Virus record (IMG/VR): IMGVR_UViG_3300032086_001785
Location: 1 to 29,290 of that record
Direction: 5' to 3' (one strand)
Source of the DNA: a virus
DNA length: 29,290 nt
Shown piece after piece: positions 41 to 28,222 of the stretch (positions are counted from its first letter, which is position 1; each line of letters starts with the position of its first letter). The position numbers and the translations under genes were made by a program. A model generated the notes under the pieces. It did not search any database and was not told the DNA's origin. It saw only the letters and a list, made by a program, of their open reading frames with translations.

Positions 41-436
41 ATGGCCAAGCGATTCCACAAGTACGGCAAACGCCAACCTGACGGGTTTCGCTCTGGCTTT
101 GAAGGCAAGGTCGCTGATGACCTCACGAACAACGGGGTGTACTGGGAGTACGAGCAACGCAAGTACAACCTCGTGATTCCACGGAGCTACACCCCGGACT
201 TTGTTCTGGGAAACGGAACTGTTCTTGAGGTCAAAGGTTATTTCGATCAGGAAGACCGACGCCTGATCAAGCTGTTCAAGGAGCAGCACTCTGATGTGGA
301 CATCCGGATGGTCCTCCAGAAGCCGCATCAGAAACTCACCAAATCAGGGCGTATGACCTACGCCACTTGGTGTGACCGTTACAACGTGCCCTGGTGTCAG
401 GGTCCTGAGATCCCAAAAGACTGGACTGTGCTGTAG
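41..436 (+). CDS. gp3: Endonuclease I, Holliday junction resolvase (T7 gp3-like)
   Basis: This 131-residue protein matches T7 endonuclease I (149 residues), which cleaves branched DNA and helps degrade host DNA for nucleotide reuse. The catalytic set is visible: FRSGFEGKV holds Glu21 (T7 Glu20), WEYE holds Glu36 (T7 Glu35), YTPDF holds Asp53 (T7 Asp55) and LEVKG holds Glu63 and Lys65 (T7 Glu65 and Lys67). The EQH-D-DIR stretch downstream is also shared. The ATG at 41 is chosen because it gives the family N-terminus and follows the upstream stop at 36; a TTG at 2 is in frame but would overlap that reading. No strong Shine-Dalgarno is seen. It lies between a probable gp2.5 and gp4 as in T7, and lacks T7's short lysine-rich C-terminus. 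Confidence 0.93.
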   Translation: MAKRFHKYGKRQPDGFRSGFEGKVADDLTNNGVYWEYEQRKYNLVIPRSYTPDFVLGNGTVLEVKGYFDQEDRRLIKLFKEQHSDVDIRMVLQKPHQKLTKSGRMTYATWCDRYNVPWCQGPEIPKDWTVL

Positions 437-444
437 TCTGTCTT

Positions 445-469
445 CGTGTTGTTTGGTTTTTGCAACACG
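445..469 (+). other. Stem-loop in the gp3-gp4 gap
   Basis: CGTGTTG at 445-451 pairs perfectly with CAACACG at 463-469 around an 11-base T-rich loop. No T-run follows the 3' arm, so it does not look like a terminator by itself. It lies just upstream of the terminator-like hairpin at 485-520. Possible roles are an RNA processing site or a transcript-stabilising structure; this is inference. Confidence 0.5.
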
Positions 470-484
470 GGTCGAAGGAACACT

Positions 485-520
485 GACCTCCAGGGCTTGA
501 AACCACCTGGGGGTCTTTTT
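485..520 (+). terminator. Terminator-like hairpin abutting the gp4 start codon
   Basis: GACCTCCAGG at 485-494 pairs with CCTGGGGGTC at 506-515 (ten pairs, one of them G-U) around an 11-base loop and is followed by five T at 516-520. The ATG of gp4 is the next base. The 3' arm contains a GGGGG run about seven bases before the ATG, the only Shine-Dalgarno-like sequence for gp4, so the folded stem would hide the ribosome site. It may act as a terminator or attenuator between gp3 and gp4, or as a translational switch. Confidence 0.7.
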
Positions 521-2149
521 ATGTCTCGCGTTGTTGGCAGGCTGAGCTGCCCACGCTGTGGATCACGGGACAACGTTGCTCAGTACGACGACGGGGGTCA
601 GCACTGCTTTACCCCTGGTTGCGGCTACCACCTCTCCACTTCCTTCACCATGCCCACCAATGAAGTACAAGCCAGTCAAGAGATCGATCCGATCCTTGGT
701 TCCTACAAAGCAATTCCAAGCCGCAAGATCCCTGAGGAGACTTGCAGGTCCTTCGGCTATTTCCAAGGTGTCTACGGCGACAGCAAGGCGTACTACTGGC
801 CGATCTACGACAAGGAGCGTCGGCTCACGGGGTACAAGATTCGTAAGCCGAAGAAACAGTTTGTTCAACACGGCTCCAACCCTGACAATACTTTCTTGGG
901 TCAGGAGAAGTGGAGCGGGGGTGGAAAACTGCTCGTTGTGTTTGAGGGTGAATACGACTGCTTGGCCTATGCAGCAGTCAGAAAGACCTGGCCCTGCGTG
1001 TCACTACCGAATGGTGCTGACTCTGCGGACAAGTGCATCCGATCTAATCTTGATTGGCTTCTGAAGTTCGAGGAGGTCATCCTGTGTTTCGATGCAGATG
1101 ACCACGGTCAGAAAGCCGCTCAGAAGGCCGTACAACTGCTTCCTCCCCGTCGAGGGAAGATCGGCACCATTCAGGGCTATAAAGACGCCAACGAGGCGCT
1201 TGTAGCGGGCGATAGCAAAGCCATCATGACGATGGTGTGGACAGCCACGGAGTATGAGCCTGATGGGATTATCAGTGGCTCCAAGTTGTTGGAGATGGTG
1301 CTCGAGGATCCGAAGGTTGAGAGTGCTGAGTATCCATACAGTTTCCTAAACGAAAAGCTTCATGGTCTTAGGAAAGGTGAGCTCGTTACTATCACGGCTG
1401 GCACGGGCATTGGAAAGAGCACTTTCGTCGCTGAGACGGCGTATGACCTCCTCGTCCGGCAGAAAGAGACGGTGGGTTACGTCGCTCTTGAAGAAAACGT
1501 TCGACGAACTGCTCGCCGTTTTGTTGGTATGGAGCTTAATTACCCTGTCCACATTGATCGCAGCATCTACACCGATGAGCAAATCTCAACCGCTTTTGAA
1601 GCAACTCTTGGAACGGGCAGGCTTTTCCTTTACGACCATTTTGGCTCTCTTGACCCTACCGTTCTGCTTAACCGTATACGTCATTTGGTTACTGGTTGCG
1701 GGTGCGACTGGATCGTGTTTGATCACCTATCGATTCTTGTCTCAGGTCTTGACCAAGGTGACGAGCGACGGGCCATCGACCAAACGATGACGAAACTCCG
1801 TAGTTTTGTTGAAGAAACAGGATGTGGGATGCTTTTGGTGTCACACTTACGCCGCCCTGTTGGCGACAAAGGTCATGAAAACGGTGCTCAAACGAGTCTT
1901 TCTCAGCTTCGCGGTAGTCACAGCATCAGCCAGCTTAGTGACATCTGTATTGGTCTTGAACGAGATCAACAAGCTGAAGACAGCAGTGCAACCACTGTTC
2001 GAGTTCTCAAAAACCGATTTACCGGGTGGTGTGGAGTTGCCGGGACTGTGAACTACAACGAAAAGACCGGCAGAATGTTGGAGCAAAAAGGAAGCAGCTC
2101 TACGAATAAGTCTGCCAAGTTCGATGATTCTTTTGAAACCGACTTTTGA
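521..2149 (+). CDS. gp4: Primase-helicase (T7 gp4-like)
   Basis: A 542-residue bifunctional primase and hexameric 5'-3' helicase, close to T7 gp4 (566). The N-terminal zinc site uses Cys10, Cys13, Cys29 and Cys34; the last pair is spaced by four residues instead of two. The TOPRIM fold shows EGEYD (Glu142), FDADD (Asp191, Asp193) and KDANEAL. The helicase has Walker A GTGIGKS (294-300), Glu324-325 in VALEEN, Walker B IVFDHLSIL (Asp401), LLVSH (His442), QLRGSHSISQLSD and the arginine finger in KNRFTG (Arg499). It ends in an acidic tail with a terminal Phe (FDDSFETDF), which in T7 docks on the polymerase. The ATG at 521 is preferred over the upstream GTG at 446 because the extra stretch would be encoded by the hairpins. 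Met44 (650) follows the zinc domain and could give a helicase-only form like T7 gp4B, but no clear ribosome site precedes it. Confidence 0.96.
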   Translation: MSRVVGRLSCPRCGSRDNVAQYDDGGQHCFTPGCGYHLSTSFTMPTNEVQASQEIDPILGSYKAIPSRKIPEETCRSFGYFQGVYGDSKAYYWPIYDKERRLTGYKIRKPKKQFVQHGSNPDNTFLGQEKWSGGGKLLVVFEGEYDCLAYAAVRKTWPCVSLPNGADSADKCIRSNLDWLLKFEEVILCFDADDHGQKAAQKAVQLLPPRRGKIGTIQGYKDANEALVAGDSKAIMTMVWTATEYEPDGIISGSKLLEMVLEDPKVESAEYPYSFLNEKLHGLRKGELVTITAGTGIGKSTFVAETAYDLLVRQKETVGYVALEENVRRTARRFVGMELNYPVHIDRSIYTDEQISTAFEATLGTGRLFLYDHFGSLDPTVLLNRIRHLVTGCGCDWIVFDHLSILVSGLDQGDERRAIDQTMTKLRSFVEETGCGMLLVSHLRRPVGDKGHENGAQTSLSQLRGSHSISQLSDICIGLERDQQAEDSSATTVRVLKNRFTGWCGVAGTVNYNEKTGRMLEQKGSSSTNKSAKFDDSFETDF

Positions 2150-2165: not shown

Positions 2166-2426
2166 ATGAATCCCCTCAAGGTCACGGCTTTGGCTGTGAC
2201 TGAGAAGGGGAAGAGGTACCTCCAGTCCTTCTTCAAGTCCAATGACCCCTGCAATCAGCTCGAGTACAGCCGACTCGAAGACCTCCTCGACTTCTGCTAC
2301 AGCAGGTGCCTCCAAGTCCACATCGATCCTGACGTTCGACGTGGAGACCAATGCCCTGAACCCCAGGGAAGTGACTACGATTCACTGCTGTGCAATCCAC
2401 TCAAAGACCCAGACGCAGCTGCATAA
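2166..2426 (+). CDS. Small ORF between gp4 and gp5, overlapping the polymerase start (uncertain)
   Basis: This frame opens shortly after the gp4 stop and reads NPLKVTALAVTEKGKRYLQS and on through QLEYSRLEDLLDFCYSR and LQVHIDP. Its codons up to about 2330 favour C or G at the third position as the surrounding genes do, and the composition looks protein-like. The competing frame over 2242-2325 gives a Ser/Thr/Ala-rich stretch with no such pattern. From about 2326 the polymerase frame is clearly the coding one, so the last 30 residues here look like overprint. It may be a small real gene of unknown function with an unusually long overlap, or the sign of a frameshift that alters the polymerase N-terminus. 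An ATG at 2124 is also in frame. I do not recognise the family. Confidence 0.4.
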   Translation: MNPLKVTALAVTEKGKRYLQSFFKSNDPCNQLEYSRLEDLLDFCYSRCLQVHIDPDVRRGDQCPEPQGSDYDSLLCNPLKDPDAAA

Positions 2427-4080
2427 GAATCCCAAGGAATGGCTGAGCCTCCTTGAGAACGCTGATGTGCTGGTGGGTCACAACATCATCCAGTACGACA
2501 TCCCTGCTATTCAGCAGGTGTACCCGGACTTCAAGCCCAAGGGAAAGATCATCGACACGTTGATCCTGTGTCGGATGCTGTACCCGAACATCCTCGATAC
2601 TGACTTCAAGAAGAAGTGGGAGGGGATGCCTATTCAGCTGTACGGCAGGCACAGTCTTGAGGCGTATGGCTTTCGTTTGGGCTACAGCAAACGCCACGCA
2701 GATCTGACTGATTTCAGTGAGCTGACTGAAGAACTTGCAGAGCGTTGTGTCTGTGATGTTGAACTAAATGTTAAGCTTTGGCACAGGTTGCAACCCAAGG
2801 CCGACAGCATCCCTTGTGCCGTTGACCTTGAGATGAGATTTGCAAGTCTCATCGCCCTGCAGGAAAGATCTGGCTTTGGCTTCAACGTTCAAGGGGCGTT
2901 GGAACTAGAAGCTGAGATCAATGGACAACTGAATACTCTCAACGAGCGTTTGAGACAACGGTTCCCGTTCGTTGACGGAGGGCTCTTCACCCCACGGCGT
3001 AATGACTCTTCAAGGGGTTACGTGGAAGGCGCAACAATGTGCCGTCTCAAAGAGTTGAATCCCAACTCCCGAGACCACATCGCCTGGGTTTTACAGAACC
3101 AACTGTCTTGGCAGCCCACTGAGCTTACGAGTTCAGGTAAGCCCAAGGTTGACGAGACAGTTCTGTCGAAGATTCCTGGAGCTGAGGATTTCGTAGAGAT
3201 CCTTACGCTGCAAAAGCGGCTGGGCCAACTGAGCACTGGTAACAATGCTTGGTTAAAACTCGTCGAGCGTGACAACAGGATTCACGGCAGTGTGATTACT
3301 GTTGGTTGCGCTACGGCTCGCTGCAGTCACGTCCACCCCAACACAGCCCAAGTTCCCGCAGTCAGGTCGGTCTTGGGTAAGGAGTGCCGGACTCTGTTTG
3401 AACCTGTCACCCTCGGGGGAGGGCGAAGCATCAAGCAGGTGGGCTGTGACCTCAGCGGGATCGAAGCTCGTTGCCTAGCGCATTACTTGTGGCCACTGGA
3501 TGATGGAGCCTTTGCTGATGAGGTTCTCAACGGTGACATCCACACCGCAAACCAAAAAGCTGCTGGTCTAACTACAAGAGACCAAGCCAAGACATTTTTC
3601 TACGCCTTGATGTATGGAGCGGGCGCTGAAAAGCTTTCCATCATCACAGGTCAAGACGGTAAGAAGCTGAAGCGTAAATACTTCAAGAATATGCCTGCCC
3701 TGGCAATGCTCACCAAGATGGTGACTGAAAAGGCGGAGACGCAGGGCTACATCAAAGCTTTAGATGGTCGAAAGATCTACATCAGATCGCCGCATAGTTC
3801 TTTGAATTTCCTTTTACAATCAGCAGGCGCTCTCGTTAGCAAGGTTTGGTACAACACTTGTTACGACGAGCTCACCAACGCTGGTTTGATCTATGGCAGG
3901 GACTGGACGTTCCTTGCTCACGTCCATGACGAAATCCAATTCTCAGTCCTCGAGCAACACGCCGAACGAGTCGGAGAACTTGCAGTTCGATCTGCTGCCT
4001 TGGCAGGAGACGCGCTTGGATTTCGTATTGAAGTCGGTGCTGAGTTCAAAGTCGGAAACAACTGGGCAGATTGCCACTAA
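2242..4080 (+). CDS. gp5: DNA polymerase, family A (T7 gp5-like)
   Basis: A 612-residue replicative polymerase with 3'-5' exonuclease. Exonuclease motifs: FDVETN (Asp33, Glu35), HNIIQYD, and CDVELNVKL. Polymerase motif A is CDLSGIEARCLAHY (Asp403), motif B is RDQAKTFFYALMYGAG (Arg446, Lys450, Tyr454, the T7 Tyr526 position) and motif C is HVHDEIQF (His562, Asp563). T7 gp5 has 704 residues; most of the difference falls in the thumb, where T7 carries its thioredoxin-binding loop. Here only some 25 residues link RFPFVDGG to ELNPNSRDHI. The 28 residues before ILTFDVETN are Ser/Thr-rich and atypical; the ATG at 2242 is the only in-frame standard start before the first motif, and has no good ribosome site. 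It lies between gp4 and gp6 as in T7. Confidence 0.96.
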   Translation: MTPAISSSTADSKTSSTSATAGASKSTSILTFDVETNALNPREVTTIHCCAIHSKTQTQLHKNPKEWLSLLENADVLVGHNIIQYDIPAIQQVYPDFKPKGKIIDTLILCRMLYPNILDTDFKKKWEGMPIQLYGRHSLEAYGFRLGYSKRHADLTDFSELTEELAERCVCDVELNVKLWHRLQPKADSIPCAVDLEMRFASLIALQERSGFGFNVQGALELEAEINGQLNTLNERLRQRFPFVDGGLFTPRRNDSSRGYVEGATMCRLKELNPNSRDHIAWVLQNQLSWQPTELTSSGKPKVDETVLSKIPGAEDFVEILTLQKRLGQLSTGNNAWLKLVERDNRIHGSVITVGCATARCSHVHPNTAQVPAVRSVLGKECRTLFEPVTLGGGRSIKQVGCDLSGIEARCLAHYLWPLDDGAFADEVLNGDIHTANQKAAGLTTRDQAKTFFYALMYGAGAEKLSIITGQDGKKLKRKYFKNMPALAMLTKMVTEKAETQGYIKALDGRKIYIRSPHSSLNFLLQSAGALVSKVWYNTCYDELTNAGLIYGRDWTFLAHVHDEIQFSVLEQHAERVGELAVRSAALAGDALGFRIEVGAEFKVGNNWADCH

Positions 4081-11529: not shown

Positions 11530-11553
11530 TTGTTGCCGCTGAGGCGATAACAA
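11530..11553 (+). other. Imperfect stem-loop in the capsid leader
   Basis: In the 88-base gap between scaffold and capsid, TTGTTGCCGC (11530-11539) pairs with GCGATAACAA (11544-11553) around a TGAG tetraloop, with one mismatch and one G-T pair. No T-run follows, so it is not a terminator. It lies 41 bases before the capsid ATG. The gap holds no strong Shine-Dalgarno and no promoter I can recognise. An RNA processing or stabilising element is possible. Confidence 0.45.
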
Positions 11554-11594
11554 CAGTGAAGACGAACGCAGCAAACTACTAACCAAACTTAGAA

Positions 11595-13038: not shown

Positions 13039-13067
13039 GGGGGAAGCAGAAATGTTTCCCCTTTTTT
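13039..13067 (+). terminator. Rho-independent terminator after the capsid gene
   Basis: GGGGAAGC (13040-13047) pairs with GTTTCCCC (13054-13061), eight pairs with one G-T, around a six-base loop AGAAAT, then six T (13062-13067). This is a canonical intrinsic terminator, 32 bases after the capsid stop and ten bases before gp11. T7 has its main late terminator, T-phi, at the same place after gene 10, where partial read-through sets capsid expression above the tail genes. The same use is likely here. Confidence 0.9.
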
Positions 13068-20554: not shown

Positions 20555-20581
20555 CAGTAGTTTGGAGGAAGCGAACTACTG
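20555..20581 (+). promoter_or_regulatory. Hairpin presenting a Shine-Dalgarno in its loop, gp16 leader
   Basis: CAGTAGTT (20555-20562) pairs perfectly with AACTACTG (20574-20581). The 11-base loop contains GGAGG (20564-20568), the only strong ribosome site before the gp16 ATG at 20592. The linear gap from GGAGG to ATG is 23 bases, too long for normal initiation. Folding could expose the site, and the stem might shorten the effective distance, as reported for T4 gene 38. Alternatively it limits gp16 translation. Confidence 0.6.
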
Positions 20582-20591
20582 TTTGGTCTAG

Positions 20592-23500
20592 ATGCCATAC
20601 GTACCTCTTTCTGACGGCCAACTTATCTTTGTAGAAACTCAAGAAGAAGCAGATCGTTTATATAACGAGAGCTGGGGTCAGGGGGCTGCTGCGGAGGCAC
20701 AACCAGCAGCACCTCAACAACCTGCTCCTGCTGAACAGCAACAAGAAGCCGCTCCTACTGCTCAAGCACAACCTGAGGTTCCTGAAGAGCGAACCTCTTT
20801 GCGCTCTGAACAGGAGCGACCTCTGACTAAATACATCGAAGACCTTGGTCGTGCTGGTGTTGATGGTCTGCGTCAAATTGTTGACCAGACGTACGGCATG
20901 GGCGAGATGATGGCCGAGTTGTACGCAGACGTTGAAGCCGGTCTGGGTGACACTGCCGGTATGATCGCTGGCGGTCCTGCTCTTGGCGGTAGCCTCAACC
21001 CAAACGCTCTTAAAGATCCTGACGTTCTCCGGGAAGAGCTGAATAACGCTGGTTTGGCTTTTGATGCCGTTGTTAAAACCGGTAAGAACCCTGAAGGTTT
21101 TAGCTACGGAATTAAACCCAGTGTTCCTGTTCTCGGTCCTTTGTTCAGTGAGGAAAGTGATCTTGTAGATGAATATGTAAAGCCCAAAACTGCTCCAGGC
21201 AAATTCGTGTCTGGTGTCGTCAGTATTATTGGTGCTGACAAGATTGCTAAAAAGATCGGTCTTAATCCGAACACCGCACCTGCTCTTGCTCAAGTATTTA
21301 AAGCAGAAGGCGCTAAGCAAAAGATAAACGCAGGCACCCGTTACCTCTTCAAAACCTTTCTTCCTGAGTTGGTTGGAGACAGCATCTACTTCGGTCCTGA
21401 TCTACCGCCAGAGCTGAATCAAGAGCTTGAGGAAGTCCGAGCAGAGGCTACTCCTGAGCTGCGTCGAGCAGCTATGAAGACCCTACTGGCTAGGGATGAC
21501 ATTGAGTTTGAGTACGCAAGCGCAGCACTAGAAAATCTGTACTGGGGTGCCGGTACTGTTCTTGGTGTTGATGCTATTGCTAAACCTCTACTTAAAAAGA
21601 TCTTCAAAATCGGTAATAACTCCGTACAAGACGTTCAAAACGGCGTACCTATTAACGAAGCAATCGATAAGCGTGTCGATGAGGGTTTCAAAGAAGTCGA
21701 AGAGGTTCTTAGCGAGAACGTCTACGACATGGCCGACACCGTTCGTGATGAGCGGCTTGGTCAACTAAACACTCTCATCAACCGCCGTATTGAAGAGAAC
21801 GTTTCAAAGATTGCTCTTAGCTCTCGCTCTGGCGCTGAGAACTACATCACTAAGCAAACTGATGTTGGTCCACGGCTGAAGGAAGCTTTGGATGCTGTTG
21901 ATGAGATCCCTGACATTGGTGAGGAACTGCCTCAGATCAGTGCTCGCGTCAACGACCTTCAAAAAGCTGCTGGTGTTTCTTCTGTTGATCAGCTTGAAGC
22001 TAAGCGTGTGATGCTTACTAAGCGGATTGAAGATTACAACAGAGCAGCAGCTGCTGATCCTGAGTGGATTAACAAAAGCACTGGCACTGGTAAACGCAAA
22101 ACAAAGAACAGCACCAAGGTCCGTAAAGCTACCCAAGCTCTTGCACGACTGGCAGATCTTGAGCAAGCAAACATCGAGCTCAAAGCAGCTCAAGAGGTGA
22201 TGGATGCTCGTGAGGCTGGCTTCAGCAAAGTCAACGAGTTGTTGCGTGAAGGTGGTGAGTCTTCCCTTGGTTTCAGGAACTCTCTCAACGATGCACGTAC
22301 TCTGATCAACAGCATTGAAGAGCTGGACAAAGAGCGTATTGGTCTACTGAAGAACCGCAACAGCGCTCTGTTTGAACAGAATCGTTTGGACGAGATCAAC
22401 AACGATCTCAAGCTGCCTGGTCCCCTTGGTGAGGCTTACCGGGAACTCAAGGACCTTGTTGATTCCGCTGAGATTGCTAACAACTTCGGCAACCTCAACG
22501 AAGAGTTTATGCGGAACTTTGTTCTCCGTGCTGAGGCTATCGAGAACAAGATCATGGAAGTCGGTGGTATGCAGCCGATCGTTCCTGAGATGCCAAAAGG
22601 CACTCCGTTTGATGATGAGTTCAAACAGCTTGAGATACCTCTGACTGGTGAGGAGGCTGTACCGCCTGAACTGAGTAGCGGTATTCCTCGTACTGCTGCT
22701 GCTGTTGAGCTGCCTGCTCCTATTACCAAGAACGAAGCTGGTGAGCTTGCTATCGACAGCAACAAAATCACCAACAACATCCAACTCAAAACGACTCGGC
22801 CGCGGCCTACTAGCGTCTCTAACCAGCAAGTTATTGATCAGCTCAACAGGCGTCAAAACAAGATGCTCGATCCTGCTGATAACGCAGAAGAGTTCTTGGA
22901 CAACCTGGACGAGATGGACAAGATCAACAAAGATCTTCTCGCTGCTGGTCGTACCGAAGAGGCTATTGAAGCTACTAAGTGGAGAAACACCAACAGCATT
23001 AAATACGCCACTAGCTGGACTAACGCCAAGATTCTGAAGCTGGCTATTAAACGTCAGCAAGAGAACGCTCGTTGGGTTCCGGCTCAAGCTGCTGAGGCTG
23101 TGTTCCGTTTGTCTGCTCTTCAGGGCTACGACAAGAACCTTGCTCGTATTCAGACCTACTTGCAAGCTGAGAAGATCGCCAAGAAAGAGAAGAAAGATAC
23201 AAATGTACTGATTACTGTTCTTGCTCTGCTGGATACCTCATCCACTCAGCTGCTGCGTGATGCTCGTGATATGCGGGCCATTGTTCGGCAAGAGAACGCA
23301 GATGCTCTTATCAAAGAACAAACCCTCCGTAACTTCAAAAACTCTTACGTCGAGCTTCAAGCTGGCGTAAAAGCTGTCACTGAGTTGATGGACGTTGCAG
23401 GTAACCGCTTGCAACTCTTTGGTAAGGCACGACGTTTGGTTGCTGGACCCAGCATCAACGACATCTTCAATTCCTATATGAAGGCTTTTGGAGATGTTGA

Positions 23501-26228
23501 TGAGCTGTCTGAAACCCTGGCAAAGAACGCAAAGAAAGCCAAGGTTGAAATGGACGCTAAGTTCAACGATGTCTTTGAACGCCTTGATAACGGTGAGGAA
23601 GTCTCACAAGCAGATCTAGAAGGTCTTGAGGATCTGGCTGATCAGATCTACATGGCCCAAGGTGATCTTAAAAAACTCCAAGACCTGCAAGTTACTGACA
23701 GGGACATCTTGGCTCGTATTCAGGTCAACGCCAGTATGAGTGGCCCTGATCTGTTCTTGACGATGCCTGTTGATGGTGTTGCTAACGGTATCCAAGAGAG
23801 TGCTTTGCGGGCTGTTGGTTACGGCGTCAACGGTTACTGGGCTAAGTGGGTCACTCAAAACCCTGAGGTCAGTGAAGCTGCAATCAAAGAAGCAAGGATT
23901 AGCGCTGGTGTTATGTACCAGTGGTTGTTCTCGCTAAACGAAGGCTTTGAGATGGCTTACCGACGGTTTGTTTACGGTAAGCAAATTGCTGATCCCAAGC
24001 AGCTAACCAACAAAGCGTATGAAATGGCTCAAACCGGTGGTATCCGTCGGGAAGAAGCAATCAACCAAGACCTCAGCGCTGAATCGCTCAACATTCCGTT
24101 CATCAACTACGTCCTTGAGCGTAAGAAAAACGGCGATGACAAGCTGTTCGATGCCATCAACAAGGCTCGGGTTCTCACAAAAGTGTTCCATGACTACACC
24201 ATTCCTGGCGAAGCTTGGAACCTGCGTGGACCTGCTGGTAAGGTTCTTGGCGGGTTTACTAGCCTTACTCGTGGGATCACTAAAAACATCCCGCTTGGCG
24301 GAGAGAAAGGTTTAGGTACTCACAGCTACTACCCCGGTGGTGAGTATATGAACCTCAGTTTGGCGACTCAAATTGCTGGTTCTGCTGACGAGTTTGTCAC
24401 AACTCTGTTTGCTCACGGTCGAGCTAAAGCAGAAGCAAAACTTATGGTTGATGACCTAATTGCTTCTGGTACTTATGCAGCTGAAGACCGAGCAAAGATG
24501 TATAGAAAACATCTTGCAGAGGCTAAGAGCCGTATCTACAAAGATAAGATCCGGGTTGGTTATGACCAGCGGGTAATCGGTCGAGCTGTTAACGAGGAAA
24601 AAGTCCTTGAGATGACTCGGGCCATCAACTTGGTCGAAGAGCTGACTGGACCTCTTGGTGATATGGAGGATGCCATCAACGTGCTGCGGAACTCTAAAAA
24701 CCCGCAGATGGCTGCTTTCTCCCGTCACGTTATTCCGTATGTTGTTTCTCCTGCTAACGCTATTAAGCGTGCAGTTAAATACGCATACGGCGGTCAAGTT
24801 GCCAACTTCGCTCTTGATATTGGTCGCCTAGGTTTCAAAGAAGCCGCAGGTCGCCTCCCAGAGAAAGTCATCGCTCAAGCTGATGCAATGAGCAACGGCG
24901 GTCTTACCAAGCACGTACTGGAGTTTGAATCTAAATACTTCAGTGAGGATATGGCTGTCCGCAGTAAGGCACAAGGTGCTCTAGCTGTTTCTGCTGGCAT
25001 CATGACCACCACTTGGGCGATGGTCAATATGGGCGAGCACGACATCACTGGCGGTATGGAGCACACCTACCGTCAAGGTGAAGCAGTTAGAAAACCCTAC
25101 ACCTGGCTGATTAACGGTGAAGAGTACAGCTACCGTTGGTGGCCCATCATTGGTCCTGCTATTGCTTTCCACGCAAACCTGCGGGATATGGATCAACACG
25201 GGACAAACCCGATGAGTGATCTTGTTTCGTTTGCTCTGGCAACAACTGCAAACACCATTATGGAAGTGCCTGCTTTGGCAGGTATTGAGCAGCTGTTCAA
25301 AGTTGTTAGCAGCACTCAAGATGGAAACGTGAATCGTCTCCAGAAGTTCCTTGCTGATGGTGCAGCCAAAGCTGGTGATCCTTACCTCAACCTCCGTAAG
25401 TTCCTCAAGTTTGGCGTTGACCCCCGTAAACCTGCTGATGCACTAGGCCGCTTCAAGCTTCCGTTTACGGAGCGCTTCAAAACTGAGCGGACTGCACAAG
25501 GTGAGGATGTTGGTTTTGCTAAGCAAACCGCTCAACAGGTTGGTGATGTTGCCAGTATGGCTGTCAGCATGATCGCTAACTCTTACGAAGACACTCCGTT
25601 CACCTTTATTGCAGAAGCAATGATGAACGAGTTCAACGGAGATGAAGATGTTCGTCTGCGGTCTCGTAAATCCATCTGGTACGGCAAACCTGAAGAAACC
25701 GTCAAAGCAAACCACGCTGGTATCTTCTGGCCTCTCCAATCTGTGTTTGGTCGGTATATGCCGTTCTCTACCAACCAAAACGACATCGTTAACCGTGAGA
25801 TGTTGAACAACATGATCTCTCCTCCTGCACCAAATATGTTTGCAGCTGATGGAGTGAAAGCTGTTGATAAGACGGTTCTCAATAACTTTGGGTTCTACCT
25901 AAACACTGAGTACACGTTCTACAGCCCACGGTTCAGAAAGACTTACACAGGTGTTAATGAGTACCTGCGTGATGTCATTAAAGATCCTTTGTACCAATCT
26001 CTTCCTTCCCTTGATTCTCCTTACGCAATGGGTAACACCTTTAGCGAGAAAGAGTTCAATTGGGACCGTGAGAACAACAGTCGTAGAGCAATGTTGATGA
26101 AAGAAGTTAGGGCGCTCTACAGTGGAGCAAAGGAAAAGTTCCTACAAGGAGACCAGCCAAATCAACGATTTAAGGCTCCTGAAAACCTCAAGCAGTACAT
26201 CAACACCCAACGAGGGATGATTAAGTAA
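20592..26228 (+). CDS. gp16: Internal core / ejection protein (T7 gp16-like), very large
   Basis: At 1878 residues this is the longest protein of the window and exceeds T7 gp16 (1318). It starts MPYVPLSDGQLIFVETQEEA, directly after an in-frame TAG, so the start is fixed. Residues 35-70 are a Gln/Ala/Pro-rich linker; most of 90-1350 is helical. A hydrophobic part (about 1460-1560), with GALAVSAGIMTTTWAM, YRWWPIIGPAIAFHANLRDM and FALATTANTIMEVPALAGI, could insert in the inner membrane. I see no N-terminal lytic transglycosylase signature like that of T7 gp16; the peptidase in gp15 may replace it. The call rests on position between gp15 and the fibre, size and composition. The last bases overlap the fibre start (TAATG). 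Confidence 0.85.
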   Translation: MPYVPLSDGQLIFVETQEEADRLYNESWGQGAAAEAQPAAPQQPAPAEQQQEAAPTAQAQPEVPEERTSLRSEQERPLTKYIEDLGRAGVDGLRQIVDQTYGMGEMMAELYADVEAGLGDTAGMIAGGPALGGSLNPNALKDPDVLREELNNAGLAFDAVVKTGKNPEGFSYGIKPSVPVLGPLFSEESDLVDEYVKPKTAPGKFVSGVVSIIGADKIAKKIGLNPNTAPALAQVFKAEGAKQKINAGTRYLFKTFLPELVGDSIYFGPDLPPELNQELEEVRAEATPELRRAAMKTLLARDDIEFEYASAALENLYWGAGTVLGVDAIAKPLLKKIFKIGNNSVQDVQNGVPINEAIDKRVDEGFKEVEEVLSENVYDMADTVRDERLGQLNTLINRRIEENVSKIALSSRSGAENYITKQTDVGPRLKEALDAVDEIPDIGEELPQISARVNDLQKAAGVSSVDQLEAKRVMLTKRIEDYNRAAAADPEWINKSTGTGKRKTKNSTKVRKATQALARLADLEQANIELKAAQEVMDAREAGFSKVNELLREGGESSLGFRNSLNDARTLINSIEELDKERIGLLKNRNSALFEQNRLDEINNDLKLPGPLGEAYRELKDLVDSAEIANNFGNLNEEFMRNFVLRAEAIENKIMEVGGMQPIVPEMPKGTPFDDEFKQLEIPLTGEEAVPPELSSGIPRTAAAVELPAPITKNEAGELAIDSNKITNNIQLKTTRPRPTSVSNQQVIDQLNRRQNKMLDPADNAEEFLDNLDEMDKINKDLLAAGRTEEAIEATKWRNTNSIKYATSWTNAKILKLAIKRQQENARWVPAQAAEAVFRLSALQGYDKNLARIQTYLQAEKIAKKEKKDTNVLITVLALLDTSSTQLLRDARDMRAIVRQENADALIKEQTLRNFKNSYVELQAGVKAVTELMDVAGNRLQLFGKARRLVAGPSINDIFNSYMKAFGDVDELSETLAKNAKKAKVEMDAKFNDVFERLDNGEEVSQADLEGLEDLADQIYMAQGDLKKLQDLQVTDRDILARIQVNASMSGPDLFLTMPVDGVANGIQESALRAVGYGVNGYWAKWVTQNPEVSEAAIKEARISAGVMYQWLFSLNEGFEMAYRRFVYGKQIADPKQLTNKAYEMAQTGGIRREEAINQDLSAESLNIPFINYVLERKKNGDDKLFDAINKARVLTKVFHDYTIPGEAWNLRGPAGKVLGGFTSLTRGITKNIPLGGEKGLGTHSYYPGGEYMNLSLATQIAGSADEFVTTLFAHGRAKAEAKLMVDDLIASGTYAAEDRAKMYRKHLAEAKSRIYKDKIRVGYDQRVIGRAVNEEKVLEMTRAINLVEELTGPLGDMEDAINVLRNSKNPQMAAFSRHVIPYVVSPANAIKRAVKYAYGGQVANFALDIGRLGFKEAAGRLPEKVIAQADAMSNGGLTKHVLEFESKYFSEDMAVRSKAQGALAVSAGIMTTTWAMVNMGEHDITGGMEHTYRQGEAVRKPYTWLINGEEYSYRWWPIIGPAIAFHANLRDMDQHGTNPMSDLVSFALATTANTIMEVPALAGIEQLFKVVSSTQDGNVNRLQKFLADGAAKAGDPYLNLRKFLKFGVDPRKPADALGRFKLPFTERFKTERTAQGEDVGFAKQTAQQVGDVASMAVSMIANSYEDTPFTFIAEAMMNEFNGDEDVRLRSRKSIWYGKPEETVKANHAGIFWPLQSVFGRYMPFSTNQNDIVNREMLNNMISPPAPNMFAADGVKAVDKTVLNNFGFYLNTEYTFYSPRFRKTYTGVNEYLRDVIKDPLYQSLPSLDSPYAMGNTFSEKEFNWDRENNSRRAMLMKEVRALYSGAKEKFLQGDQPNQRFKAPENLKQYINTQRGMIK

Positions 26229-28222
26229 TGGCTTTTGCTTCTATCACATATACCAGTGCATCTGGTACCACCTTTGCTCTGACGAATAGTGATGGCAACG
26301 CCATTGAATATCTTCGTCAATCTGATATTGCTGTAACCGTCAACGGTACGCTTCAAACGCTTACCACTGATTACACGTTCAACGCAGCTGGGACCTCAAT
26401 TGTCCTTAACACTGCAGTCAGTAGTGCAACGGTTGTTATTACTCGAACGACCAGCATTACTGACGCCACAGTGAGTTTTACTGCTGGCTCTACGCTGACA
26501 GCTCAGGACCTCAACAACTCTGACAGACAGAACCGATTTGCTCTGCAAGAGTTTTCAGATACCTACGGTGCCCTTACTACCGGTACTGGTGATCTAAGCG
26601 CTCTTGCTGGTTTCATTGGTAGCGCTGAGACGTGGACTTCTGATAACGCTCACGCAGCAACCACAGGAGCTATTGACGCTCGCATTGACACTGCACTGAC
26701 GACTGACATCAGCGGTGGTGACGGTGTAACGATTACCACTGACACTCCTGCTGCTGGTCAGGTCCGGGTTGACCTTGATGCTGACATCGCCACTCTGCGG
26801 AATATGCAATCTGGAGCGGCCACTGCTCTTGCTGCTCTGACCTCTACGGAACTTGGGATCCTTGACGGGGCTACAGTCACCACTGCAGAGCTGAACACGC
26901 TGGATGGAGTTACTGCTACTGCTGCTGAAATTAACGTCCTTGATGGAGTTACTGCAACTACTGCTGAGCTGAACATCCTTGATGGGGTGACGGCTTCTAC
27001 GGCTGAACTGAATATCCTTGACGGCGTTACTGCCACCGAAACTGAGCTCAACGTCCTCGACGGTATTACTGCTACTACGGCAGAGCTGAACTTTGTTGAT
27101 GGTGTTACTTCCAACATCCAAAACCAGCTAGACGCTAAGCAGCCACTGGATGCAGAGCTGACTGAGCTGGCTACGATGCCCGCTACAACCGCTTCAGCCC
27201 TTGCAGACCTAACTCAAGCTGAGGTGCAAGTTCTTGATGGTGCAACTCTAAACACTGCTGAGCTTAACCAGCTTGATGGCAACAGCCTGACCAACTCTCC
27301 GACTTGGACTTCTACTACTGATTACCCGTCAGCAAGCGCAATCAACACCCGCTTTGTCGGGTTGATGGACAGCCTTGGTGGTTTTGTTGCTATTGCTGAT
27401 GACCAAAGCTTCCCGACCACTAACCCAGATCCTTCTGACAACGCAGGTACTGTCGTCAGTATTGCTGATGCTGGTGGTCTTGTAATTAACGCCTCTGGTG
27501 AAAGCACTACTGGTCGGACTACTGGTTCTGATGTCGTAACGATTACTGGTTTCCCTGCAAGCCTCCAAAGCACTACCTTTGCTGCTGGTCTTGGTCTGCA
27601 GGTTCAAACCACAACGACTCTGCACACCTACACGTACCACAAGATCATTGCCAAAGAAACTGATGTCATTCAGCTCAGTCAAGACATTGAGGACTTTGGT
27701 AACCGCTATCGGGTAGCTGCTACTAACCCCAGCACCGATAACGATGAAGGTGATCTGGTCTACAACACCACTGATGATGTTCTGAGGGTTTTTGACGGTA
27801 CTAACTGGGTCGCTGCAGCAGCTGCTAACGCCTCTCAAGTAGCGTTTAGTGCTGGCGGTGATATTGCTGCTACTGATGTTCAAGCAGCTATTGATGAACT
27901 AGACGACGAAAAAGTACCCCGTACTGCTACTACTGGTGCTGCAGTTGTTCCTGCTGGTACTGAACTTCAAAGACCTACTGGTGTTGCTGGTCACCTCAGA
28001 TTTAACACTGATACAGATTCTTTCGAAGGTTTTGACGGTACAAGTTGGGGTAACATTGGTGGAGGAGCTTCCGCTGGTGGAGCTATTTACGAGGCATCCC
28101 AAACTATTAGTGCCGACTACACTATTACGTCCGGTACAAACGGCCTCAGTGTATCTCCCATCACCGTAAATGCTGGGGTCACCGTCACCATTCCTGCCGG
28201 TTCTACCTGGACAATTGTTTAA
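26228..28222 (+). CDS. gp17: Tail fibre with T7 gp17-like N-terminus and TAELN repeats
   Basis: A 664-residue fibre. Residues 1-125 match the T7 tail fibre attachment domain, with NGTLQTLTTDYTFNAAGTSI, AGSTLTAQDLNNSDRQNRFA and LQEFSDTYGAL. From about 205 comes an array of 13-residue units, LDGVTATTAELNI, with further degenerate copies near 335-350. The C-terminal part includes QAAIDELDDEKV, AGHLRFNTDTDSFEGFDGT and a beta end, QTISADYTITSG to PAGSTWTIV, common in cyanophage fibre proteins. The N-terminal part binds the tail, the rest probably forms a trimeric shaft. It has no recognisable receptor-binding tip, so the next genes may supply adhesin function. Confidence 0.92.
   Translation: MAFASITYTSASGTTFALTNSDGNAIEYLRQSDIAVTVNGTLQTLTTDYTFNAAGTSIVLNTAVSSATVVITRTTSITDATVSFTAGSTLTAQDLNNSDRQNRFALQEFSDTYGALTTGTGDLSALAGFIGSAETWTSDNAHAATTGAIDARIDTALTTDISGGDGVTITTDTPAAGQVRVDLDADIATLRNMQSGAATALAALTSTELGILDGATVTTAELNTLDGVTATAAEINVLDGVTATTAELNILDGVTASTAELNILDGVTATETELNVLDGITATTAELNFVDGVTSNIQNQLDAKQPLDAELTELATMPATTASALADLTQAEVQVLDGATLNTAELNQLDGNSLTNSPTWTSTTDYPSASAINTRFVGLMDSLGGFVAIADDQSFPTTNPDPSDNAGTVVSIADAGGLVINASGESTTGRTTGSDVVTITGFPASLQSTTFAAGLGLQVQTTTTLHTYTYHKIIAKETDVIQLSQDIEDFGNRYRVAATNPSTDNDEGDLVYNTTDDVLRVFDGTNWVAAAAANASQVAFSAGGDIAATDVQAAIDELDDEKVPRTATTGAAVVPAGTELQRPTGVAGHLRFNTDTDSFEGFDGTSWGNIGGGASAGGAIYEASQTISADYTITSGTNGLSVSPITVNAGVTVTIPAGSTWTIV
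26861..27094 (+). repeat. Six tandem 39-base units encoding a 13-residue repeat
   Basis: Six consecutive units of 39 bases encode variants of LDGVTATTAELNI (first LDGATVTTAELNT, last LDGITATTAELNF). A partial seventh unit (VDGVTSNIQNQL) follows. Degenerate copies lie before (TSTELGI) and after (LDGATLNTAELNQ, near 27233). DNA copies differ at many third positions, so expansion is not very recent, yet the exact 39-base spacing would allow copy-number change by recombination. Confidence 0.9.

Follow-up and report, generated by a model that had tools for sequence, protein, structure and literature searches.

The locus

The window is an entire virus record of 29,290 nt. Its gene content is that of a T7-like phage: endonuclease I (gp3), primase/helicase (gp4), DNA polymerase and exonuclease, along with ribonucleotide reductase, a head-tail connector and a Gp10A-like capsid protein. 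The nearest match of gp4 in the searched phage records is the gp4 of Prochlorococcus phage P-RSP2 (64.5%), a phage described as an outlier within the cyanopodoviruses in the excerpt of PMC9860041.

The gp3 stop codon TAG occupies positions 434–436 and the gp4 start codon ATG lies at 521, so the gap between the two genes (437–520) is 84 nt long. The features of the junction are listed in Table 1. An earlier reading made from the letters of the window (the sequence-only reading) had described the gap as a 7-bp hairpin (hairpin 1) and a 10-bp hairpin (hairpin 2) with a T run that ends at the ATG; the sequence confirms this. Hairpin 1 has seven perfect pairs between the arms CGTGTTG (445–451) and CAACACG (463–469). 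In hairpin 2, the arms GACCTCCAGG (485–494) and CCTGGGGGTC (506–515) form ten pairs, one of them G-U, around a loop of 11 nt. An N-terminal extension of gp4 from GTG 446 was rejected, given that in relatives without an inserted ORF gp4 begins right behind hairpin 2.

Table 1. Features of the gp3–gp4 junction in the window.
Feature	Position	Strand	Basis or remark
gp3, endonuclease I; last codons join the upstream helix	41–436	+	Pfam PF05367 (Phage_endo_I), E 9e-31; PHROG 945
P1 helix, 5' arm within gp3: TCCT 403–406 and GATCC 409–413	403–413	+	Between-lineage co-variation with the 3' arm
P2, small stem around the gp3 stop codon, 419–427 with 435–442	419–442	+	RNAalifold core; by eye in the window
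Hairpin 1, 7 bp, window lineage only	445–469	+	Sequence; distribution
P1 helix, 3' arm GGGTCGAAGGA	469–479	+	Duplex with 403–413, −13.9 kcal/mol; swap tests
Hairpin 2, a conserved 10-bp stem-loop, SD-sequestering and terminator-like	485–515	+	Sequence, folding, conservation
Shine-Dalgarno (SD) sequence in the 3' arm of hairpin 2, GGGGG in the window	509–513	+	GGAGG in 32 of 34 versions
T tract (TTTTT), from the stem to the start codon	516–520	+	Sequence; kept in the versions compared
gp4, T7-type primase/helicase	521–2149	+	PHROG 239, E 2.5e-171; Pfam DnaB_C and Helic-prim_T7_N

The SD of the window lies 7 nt upstream of the gp4 ATG. The gap contains one more SD-like string, AAGGA at 475–479 (AAGGAA to 480), some 40 nt away from the ATG and probably within a helix. 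Neither the role of SD for a leader ORF nor that of a standby site was accepted for it, since by eye no conserved start codon follows it and it pairs in P1.

Elsewhere in the window, an ORF of 100 aa (2124–2426) overlaps, in another frame, the start of the DNA polymerase ORF (2242–4080), whose assigned start or frame is provisional; the S-TIP37 record carries a remark that the polymerase may be read in two frames. Direct repeats of 39 nt (13 codons) are found at 26846–27109 within the 664-aa ORF 26228–28222.

Hairpin 2 against the background of the genome

Strict T-tailed hairpins were defined as having at least 9 pairs, at least 6 G-C pairs and at least 5 T in 6 positions. The plus strand of the window contains two of them, hairpin 2 and a hairpin at 13039–13062 behind the capsid gene, and the other strand contains none; one in total was found on the plus strands of 12 simulated genomes. 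Of 2000 simulated genomes, 29 contained a T-tailed stem that bears an SD and is followed by a start codon at SD distance. Hairpin 2 escaped a generic terminator scan, which allowed loops of no more than 8 nt. The fold of a 131-nt segment around the gap is slightly better than that of shuffled sequences (z = −1.7), and for the hairpin 2 span alone z equals −4.2. Rfam yielded no matches at the gathering score in the window and none up to E = 1 in positions 380–560. At the level of sequence, the reality of hairpin 2 is settled by its conservation in relatives.

Conservation and distribution in relatives

Pairing in relatives had been named beforehand as the point on which the hairpin should stand or fall, and it is conserved: in 34 distinct versions of hairpin 2, 94.7% of 374 cells are paired. 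The 5' arm CCTCCA is identical in all 34 versions. The 3' arm reads GGAGG in 32 and GGGGG in two, the window among them. The loop varies in both length and letters, without any conserved motif in the 34 versions, and the inner part of the 3' arm varies too. The two outer pairs have changed on both sides, from G-C to A-U in nine versions and from A-U to G-C in three. Column shuffles never matched the percentage paired, the number of double-change cells or the covariation score (0/500 each); they did match the number of pairs with double changes (196/500) and the number of pair types (426/500). Slid partners were paired in 34–64% of cells, against 94.7% in the true register. Five of the 11 pairs are invariant and hence uninformative by covariation. 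The CCTCC/GGAGG core was never swapped for another stem sequence in the 34 versions; thus the evidence for it is conservation, as a dual role would predict. Judged from the aligned sequences, hairpin 2 is a real conserved element.

From the first search for gp4 relatives, 80 of 250 loci were retained: 41 with gp4 at least 61% identical and with sequence 5' of gp4, 34 with identity of at most 46%, and five beginning inside gp4. Hairpin 2 is present in 41 of the 41 former loci and absent from all 34 loci of low identity; two loci below 47% identity (L049 and L051) contain a looser match somewhere in the locus. The second search, with P-RSP2 gp4 as the query, provided 53 loci, 25 of them P-RSP2-like. 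All 22 P-RSP2-like loci having 5' sequence carry hairpin 2, and none of the remaining 28 loci do. Among 16 named phages it occurs in the isolate P-RSP2 and is absent from the other 15 (P60, Syn5, S-CBP1, 2, 3, 4 and 42, S-TIP28, S-TIP37, SS120-1 and others). These counts leave out L112 and L162, which have a hairpin of the same kind without gp4 downstream, and the loci starting within gp4 (L038–L040, L044, L045, L246, L257, L262). In the material examined, hairpin 2 is a feature of the P-RSP2-like group.

The ribosome site and inserted ORFs

The spacer between the SD and the start codon is 6–8 nt in 34 of 34 versions, with 4–6 consecutive T inside. The sequence-only reading stated that hairpin 2 hides the only SD-like sequence for gp4, and folding supports this for the only well-placed SD: in the predicted ensembles of 32 versions the mean unpaired probability of the SD is 0.0013. 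Among the window gene starts inspected by eye, gp4 alone has a full five-purine SD at normal spacing. Most genes of the window phage, also by eye, are without an SD, so genes of this phage do not strictly need one.

In some relatives another ORF stands between the hairpin and gp4. This is a 67-aa ORF in the L041 type and one 196-aa ORF in the L159, L240 and L250 types, where it follows three different versions of the hairpin. Both start directly behind the hairpin with the same kind of SD distance, and an ORF inserted before gp4 takes over the ribosome site of the hairpin. Given this reuse of the SD, the element belongs to the position after gp3, serving whichever gene is next. Pfam gave no match for either of the two inserted ORFs tested. 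The 196-aa ORF begins with MRVLIGCEHSG and resembles a moving cassette.

A helix between gp3 and the gap

A co-varying structure overlooked in the sequence-only reading is the P1 helix, formed by the end of gp3 with the bases just 5' of hairpin 2. It was evaluated by an alignment-free swap test in which the gp3 segment of each lineage was paired in silico with its own downstream segment and with those of other lineages. For 15 representatives the mean energy was −15.6 kcal/mol with the own segment vs −11.9 kcal/mol with the others, and 0 of 20,000 permutations were as good; for 12 representatives of the window's clade the values were −16.0 vs −12.5 kcal/mol (0/20,000). Other gp3 segments, used as controls in the 12-representative set, produced fractions of 0.56, 0.78, 0.70, 0.01 and 0.25. 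With 17 clusters the result was 0/50,000, the 5' segment of L115 being misplaced in this comparison and anchored separately in the 15- and 12-representative tests; in all swap tests related lineages were counted though they are not independent. P1 is weak in several lineages of the 17-cluster comparison and was not recovered by RNAalifold on the full alignment A1. The RNAalifold core of P2 was obtained from 18 relatives without stop-shifting insertions. Together P1 and P2 make an imperfect long stem in several lineages; its folding energy is no better than that of some other gp3 stretches and is not distinctive.

Hairpin 1, located between P2 and the 3' arm of P1, does not belong to the conserved element. 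In a check of the window and L001–L046, only the window, L001, L002 and L003 had its stem. In P-RSP2-like phages a small hairpin of another kind is seen by eye in this place, and its GGTAA could pair to either side.

The string TGCTATAGT at the end of gp3 doubles as one side of P2. By eye, it is kept as TGCTACACT or TGCTACAGT in L012, L019, L030 and L089, where the gp3 stop is earlier. The conservation of this string might reflect a host promoter or its place in P2; a sigma-70 scan had no match there in the window.

Terminator-like properties

The G+C-rich stem of hairpin 2 is directly followed by a run of 4–6 T in 34 of 34 versions, as in intrinsic terminators. A rough terminator score equals 17.4 for hairpin 2 of the window, while the T-tailed hairpin after the capsid gene scores 24.5; across 32 versions of hairpin 2 the score is modest and widely spread, from 1.8 to 32.1. 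Termination or pausing at the T tract is plausible. The comparison case for a T-tailed hairpin behind the capsid gene is T-phi of T7, which the hairpin at 13039–13062 resembles in position. P-RSP2 retains both T-tailed hairpins at the same two gene boundaries, after gp3 and after the capsid gene.

Similar hairpins and promoter candidates elsewhere

Other viral contigs contain CCTCC..TAAATA..GGAGGTTTTT hairpins right before genes, with an SD in the 3' arm, a T tract and a start codon. A scan for this stem carrying TAAATA in its loop returned at least 120 stretches, of which 80 loci were examined (L119, L124, L140, L146, L150, L171, L175, L177 and L179 among them). A nearby start codon with an ORF of at least 40 aa is present in 73 of the 80, the start being 7–11 nt behind the SD, with 38 distinct protein starts. 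The TAAATA of the loop resembles the T4 late promoter, given as TATAAAT in the excerpt of PMC3037559, and the contigs probably come from T4-like phages. RNAs begun at such a promoter would lack the 5' arm, and therefore their SD would be open.

In the leader before the capsid gene, the window at about 11530–11560 reads ATTGTTGCCGCTGAGGCGATAACA and its P-RSP2 counterpart reads ATTGTTGCCTCTGAGGAGATAACA. A small stem in it shows a matched change from CGC/GCG in the window to CTC/GAG in P-RSP2, which suggests another conserved RNA element or a phage promoter. A 10-bp hairpin at 20555–20581 precedes the ORF at 20592; its loop shows GGAGGA, 23 nt from the ATG. On the reverse complement of P-RSP2 (L110), intergenic CACGACC strings at 3236, 38934 and 41028, one of them between gp4 and DNA polymerase, are candidate promoters of a single-subunit RNA polymerase.

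Interpretation and alternatives

We propose, with a probability of about 0.6, that the terminator-like hairpin sequesters the ribosome site and would thereby damp the first gene after gp3. In this model the gp3–gp4 junction would be a conserved cis-acting mRNA leader with one hairpin, having two roles, at its core. In the nascent RNA, ACCUCC of the 5' arm would pair with GGAGGU of the 3' arm just 5' of the U tract, and this pairing together with the U tract may delay or halt some polymerases on their way from the ssb-endonuclease genes into the primase gene. Whenever a transcript extends past this point, the 3' arm of the hairpin would also be the SD of the next start codon, so ribosomes would have to wait until the hairpin opens. 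Both effects would reduce expression of the gene that comes first after gp3, usually that of the primase-helicase. The closed ribosome site is better supported than partial termination. Directly seen in the sequences are the pairing, the SD with its spacing, the T tract, the co-variation of P1 and the reuse of the SD by inserted ORFs; the effects on RNA and protein, and any coupling to gp3 translation, are inferred. P1 would link the end of gp3 to the bases just 5' of hairpin 2; since ribosomes completing gp3 would disrupt it, translation of gp3 could tune the module. The suggestion of the sequence-only reading that the hairpin couples helicase production to pausing or RNA processing is a guess.

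Hairpin 2 could be only an intrinsic terminator, or a stabiliser of the 3' end of the ssb-gp3 transcript, with a 3' arm that resembles an SD by coincidence. The presence of the stem and T tract in all 34 versions, the similar hairpin that follows the capsid gene in both the window and P-RSP2, and the lack of an SD at most genes here are consistent with such a role. We consider it unlikely, however, as the distance from SD to start stays within 6–8 nt in 34 of 34 versions, inserted ORFs preserve it, and no other stem sequence ever replaces the CCTCC/GGAGG core. In addition, hairpin 2 resembles intrinsic (Rho-independent) terminators in the G+C-rich stem with a following T run at a gene boundary, but differs from them in the start codon immediately next, the descending arm that is itself an SD, and a T run of only 4–6. 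The gp3–gp4 junction shares with the T7 RNase III sites a structured RNA in an intergenic gap of the T7-like early/middle region, and RNase III processing there is possible. That such a T7-like site explains the locus, the P1-P2 stem being cut and hairpin 2 becoming the 5' end of a stable gp4 mRNA, is very unlikely: the imperfect long stem in several lineages and the co-variation of P1 would agree with it, but several lineages have a weak P1, and conservation is strongest in a short 10-bp SD hairpin and not in a long double-stranded substrate.

A purely translational operator, perhaps bound by the ssDNA-binding protein or by gp4 itself and with no RNA ends at the site, is quite unlikely. It would agree with an invariant CCTCCA in all 34 versions beside a variable loop and inner 3' arm, and T4 gp43 and gp32 regulate in this way according to the excerpt of PMC3014915; however, at least four consecutive T follow the stem in 34 of 34 versions, exceeding the needs of an SD spacer, and no loop motif is conserved. 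Least probable of all is a switch of the T4 gene e type, in which a phage promoter inside the hairpin would start RNAs without the 5' arm and with an open SD. T4 gene e works so (same excerpt), the TAAATA-core hairpins of other viral contigs share the anatomy, and the 5' arm is unusually invariant. On the other hand, neither the loop nor the bases 5' of the 5' arm are conserved, and GACCTCCAGGGG (up to two mismatches) is not a repeated intergenic motif in the three genomes scanned.

Relation to known systems

Inhibitory RNA structures at translation starts are described for T4 genes e, soc, 49 and I-TevI (PMC3014915, in part). As in these cases, the SD and/or the start region is enclosed in an RNA helix before a phage gene, the SD is predicted to be paired in a stable stem of a transcript initiated upstream, and the stem is conserved across related phages. 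In the T4 cases, late promoters beside the ribosome-binding site give transcripts without the 5' strand, whereas no such promoter is evident here. Further differences from the T4 cases are a T tract directly after the stem, a downstream gene that serves replication, and a helix extending back into the gene upstream. Since T4 closes the SDs of these four genes by structure, the principle is already known. What varies here is the combination: in this phage group an SD hairpin and a T tract stand together ahead of a replication gene, with a link back into gp3. The openly licensed papers searched name no such element for cyanopodoviruses.

In the expression platforms of riboswitches and other leaders, a stem closes the ribosome-binding site and one stem decides the expression of the gene behind it. 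Hairpin 2 would likewise decide the expression of the next gene; unlike riboswitches, it shows no evident ligand-binding domain and has no Rfam match.

A broader and tentative possibility is a composite attenuator. As ribosomes translate the end of gp3, P1 would open or close and so tune a portable hairpin acting as both terminator and ribosome gate for the next gene. T7-like phages of the P-RSP2 type would place it before replication genes, and other, probably T4-like, marine phages would have arrived at the SD-terminator design on their own, placing a late promoter in the loop.

Returning to the damping hairpin proposed above, it locks the predicted ribosome site and resembles a transcription stop, and therefore the amount of the replication protein is probably limited. 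The element stays put while the gene behind it changes, and so it behaves as a movable expression leader. If the proposed function is true, one 31-nt RNA would govern two steps for the replication genes of P-RSP2-like cyanopodoviruses, the entry of transcription into them and their translation. It would give the phage a simple means to set the dose of primase-helicase, and it may serve as bait for the same design elsewhere.
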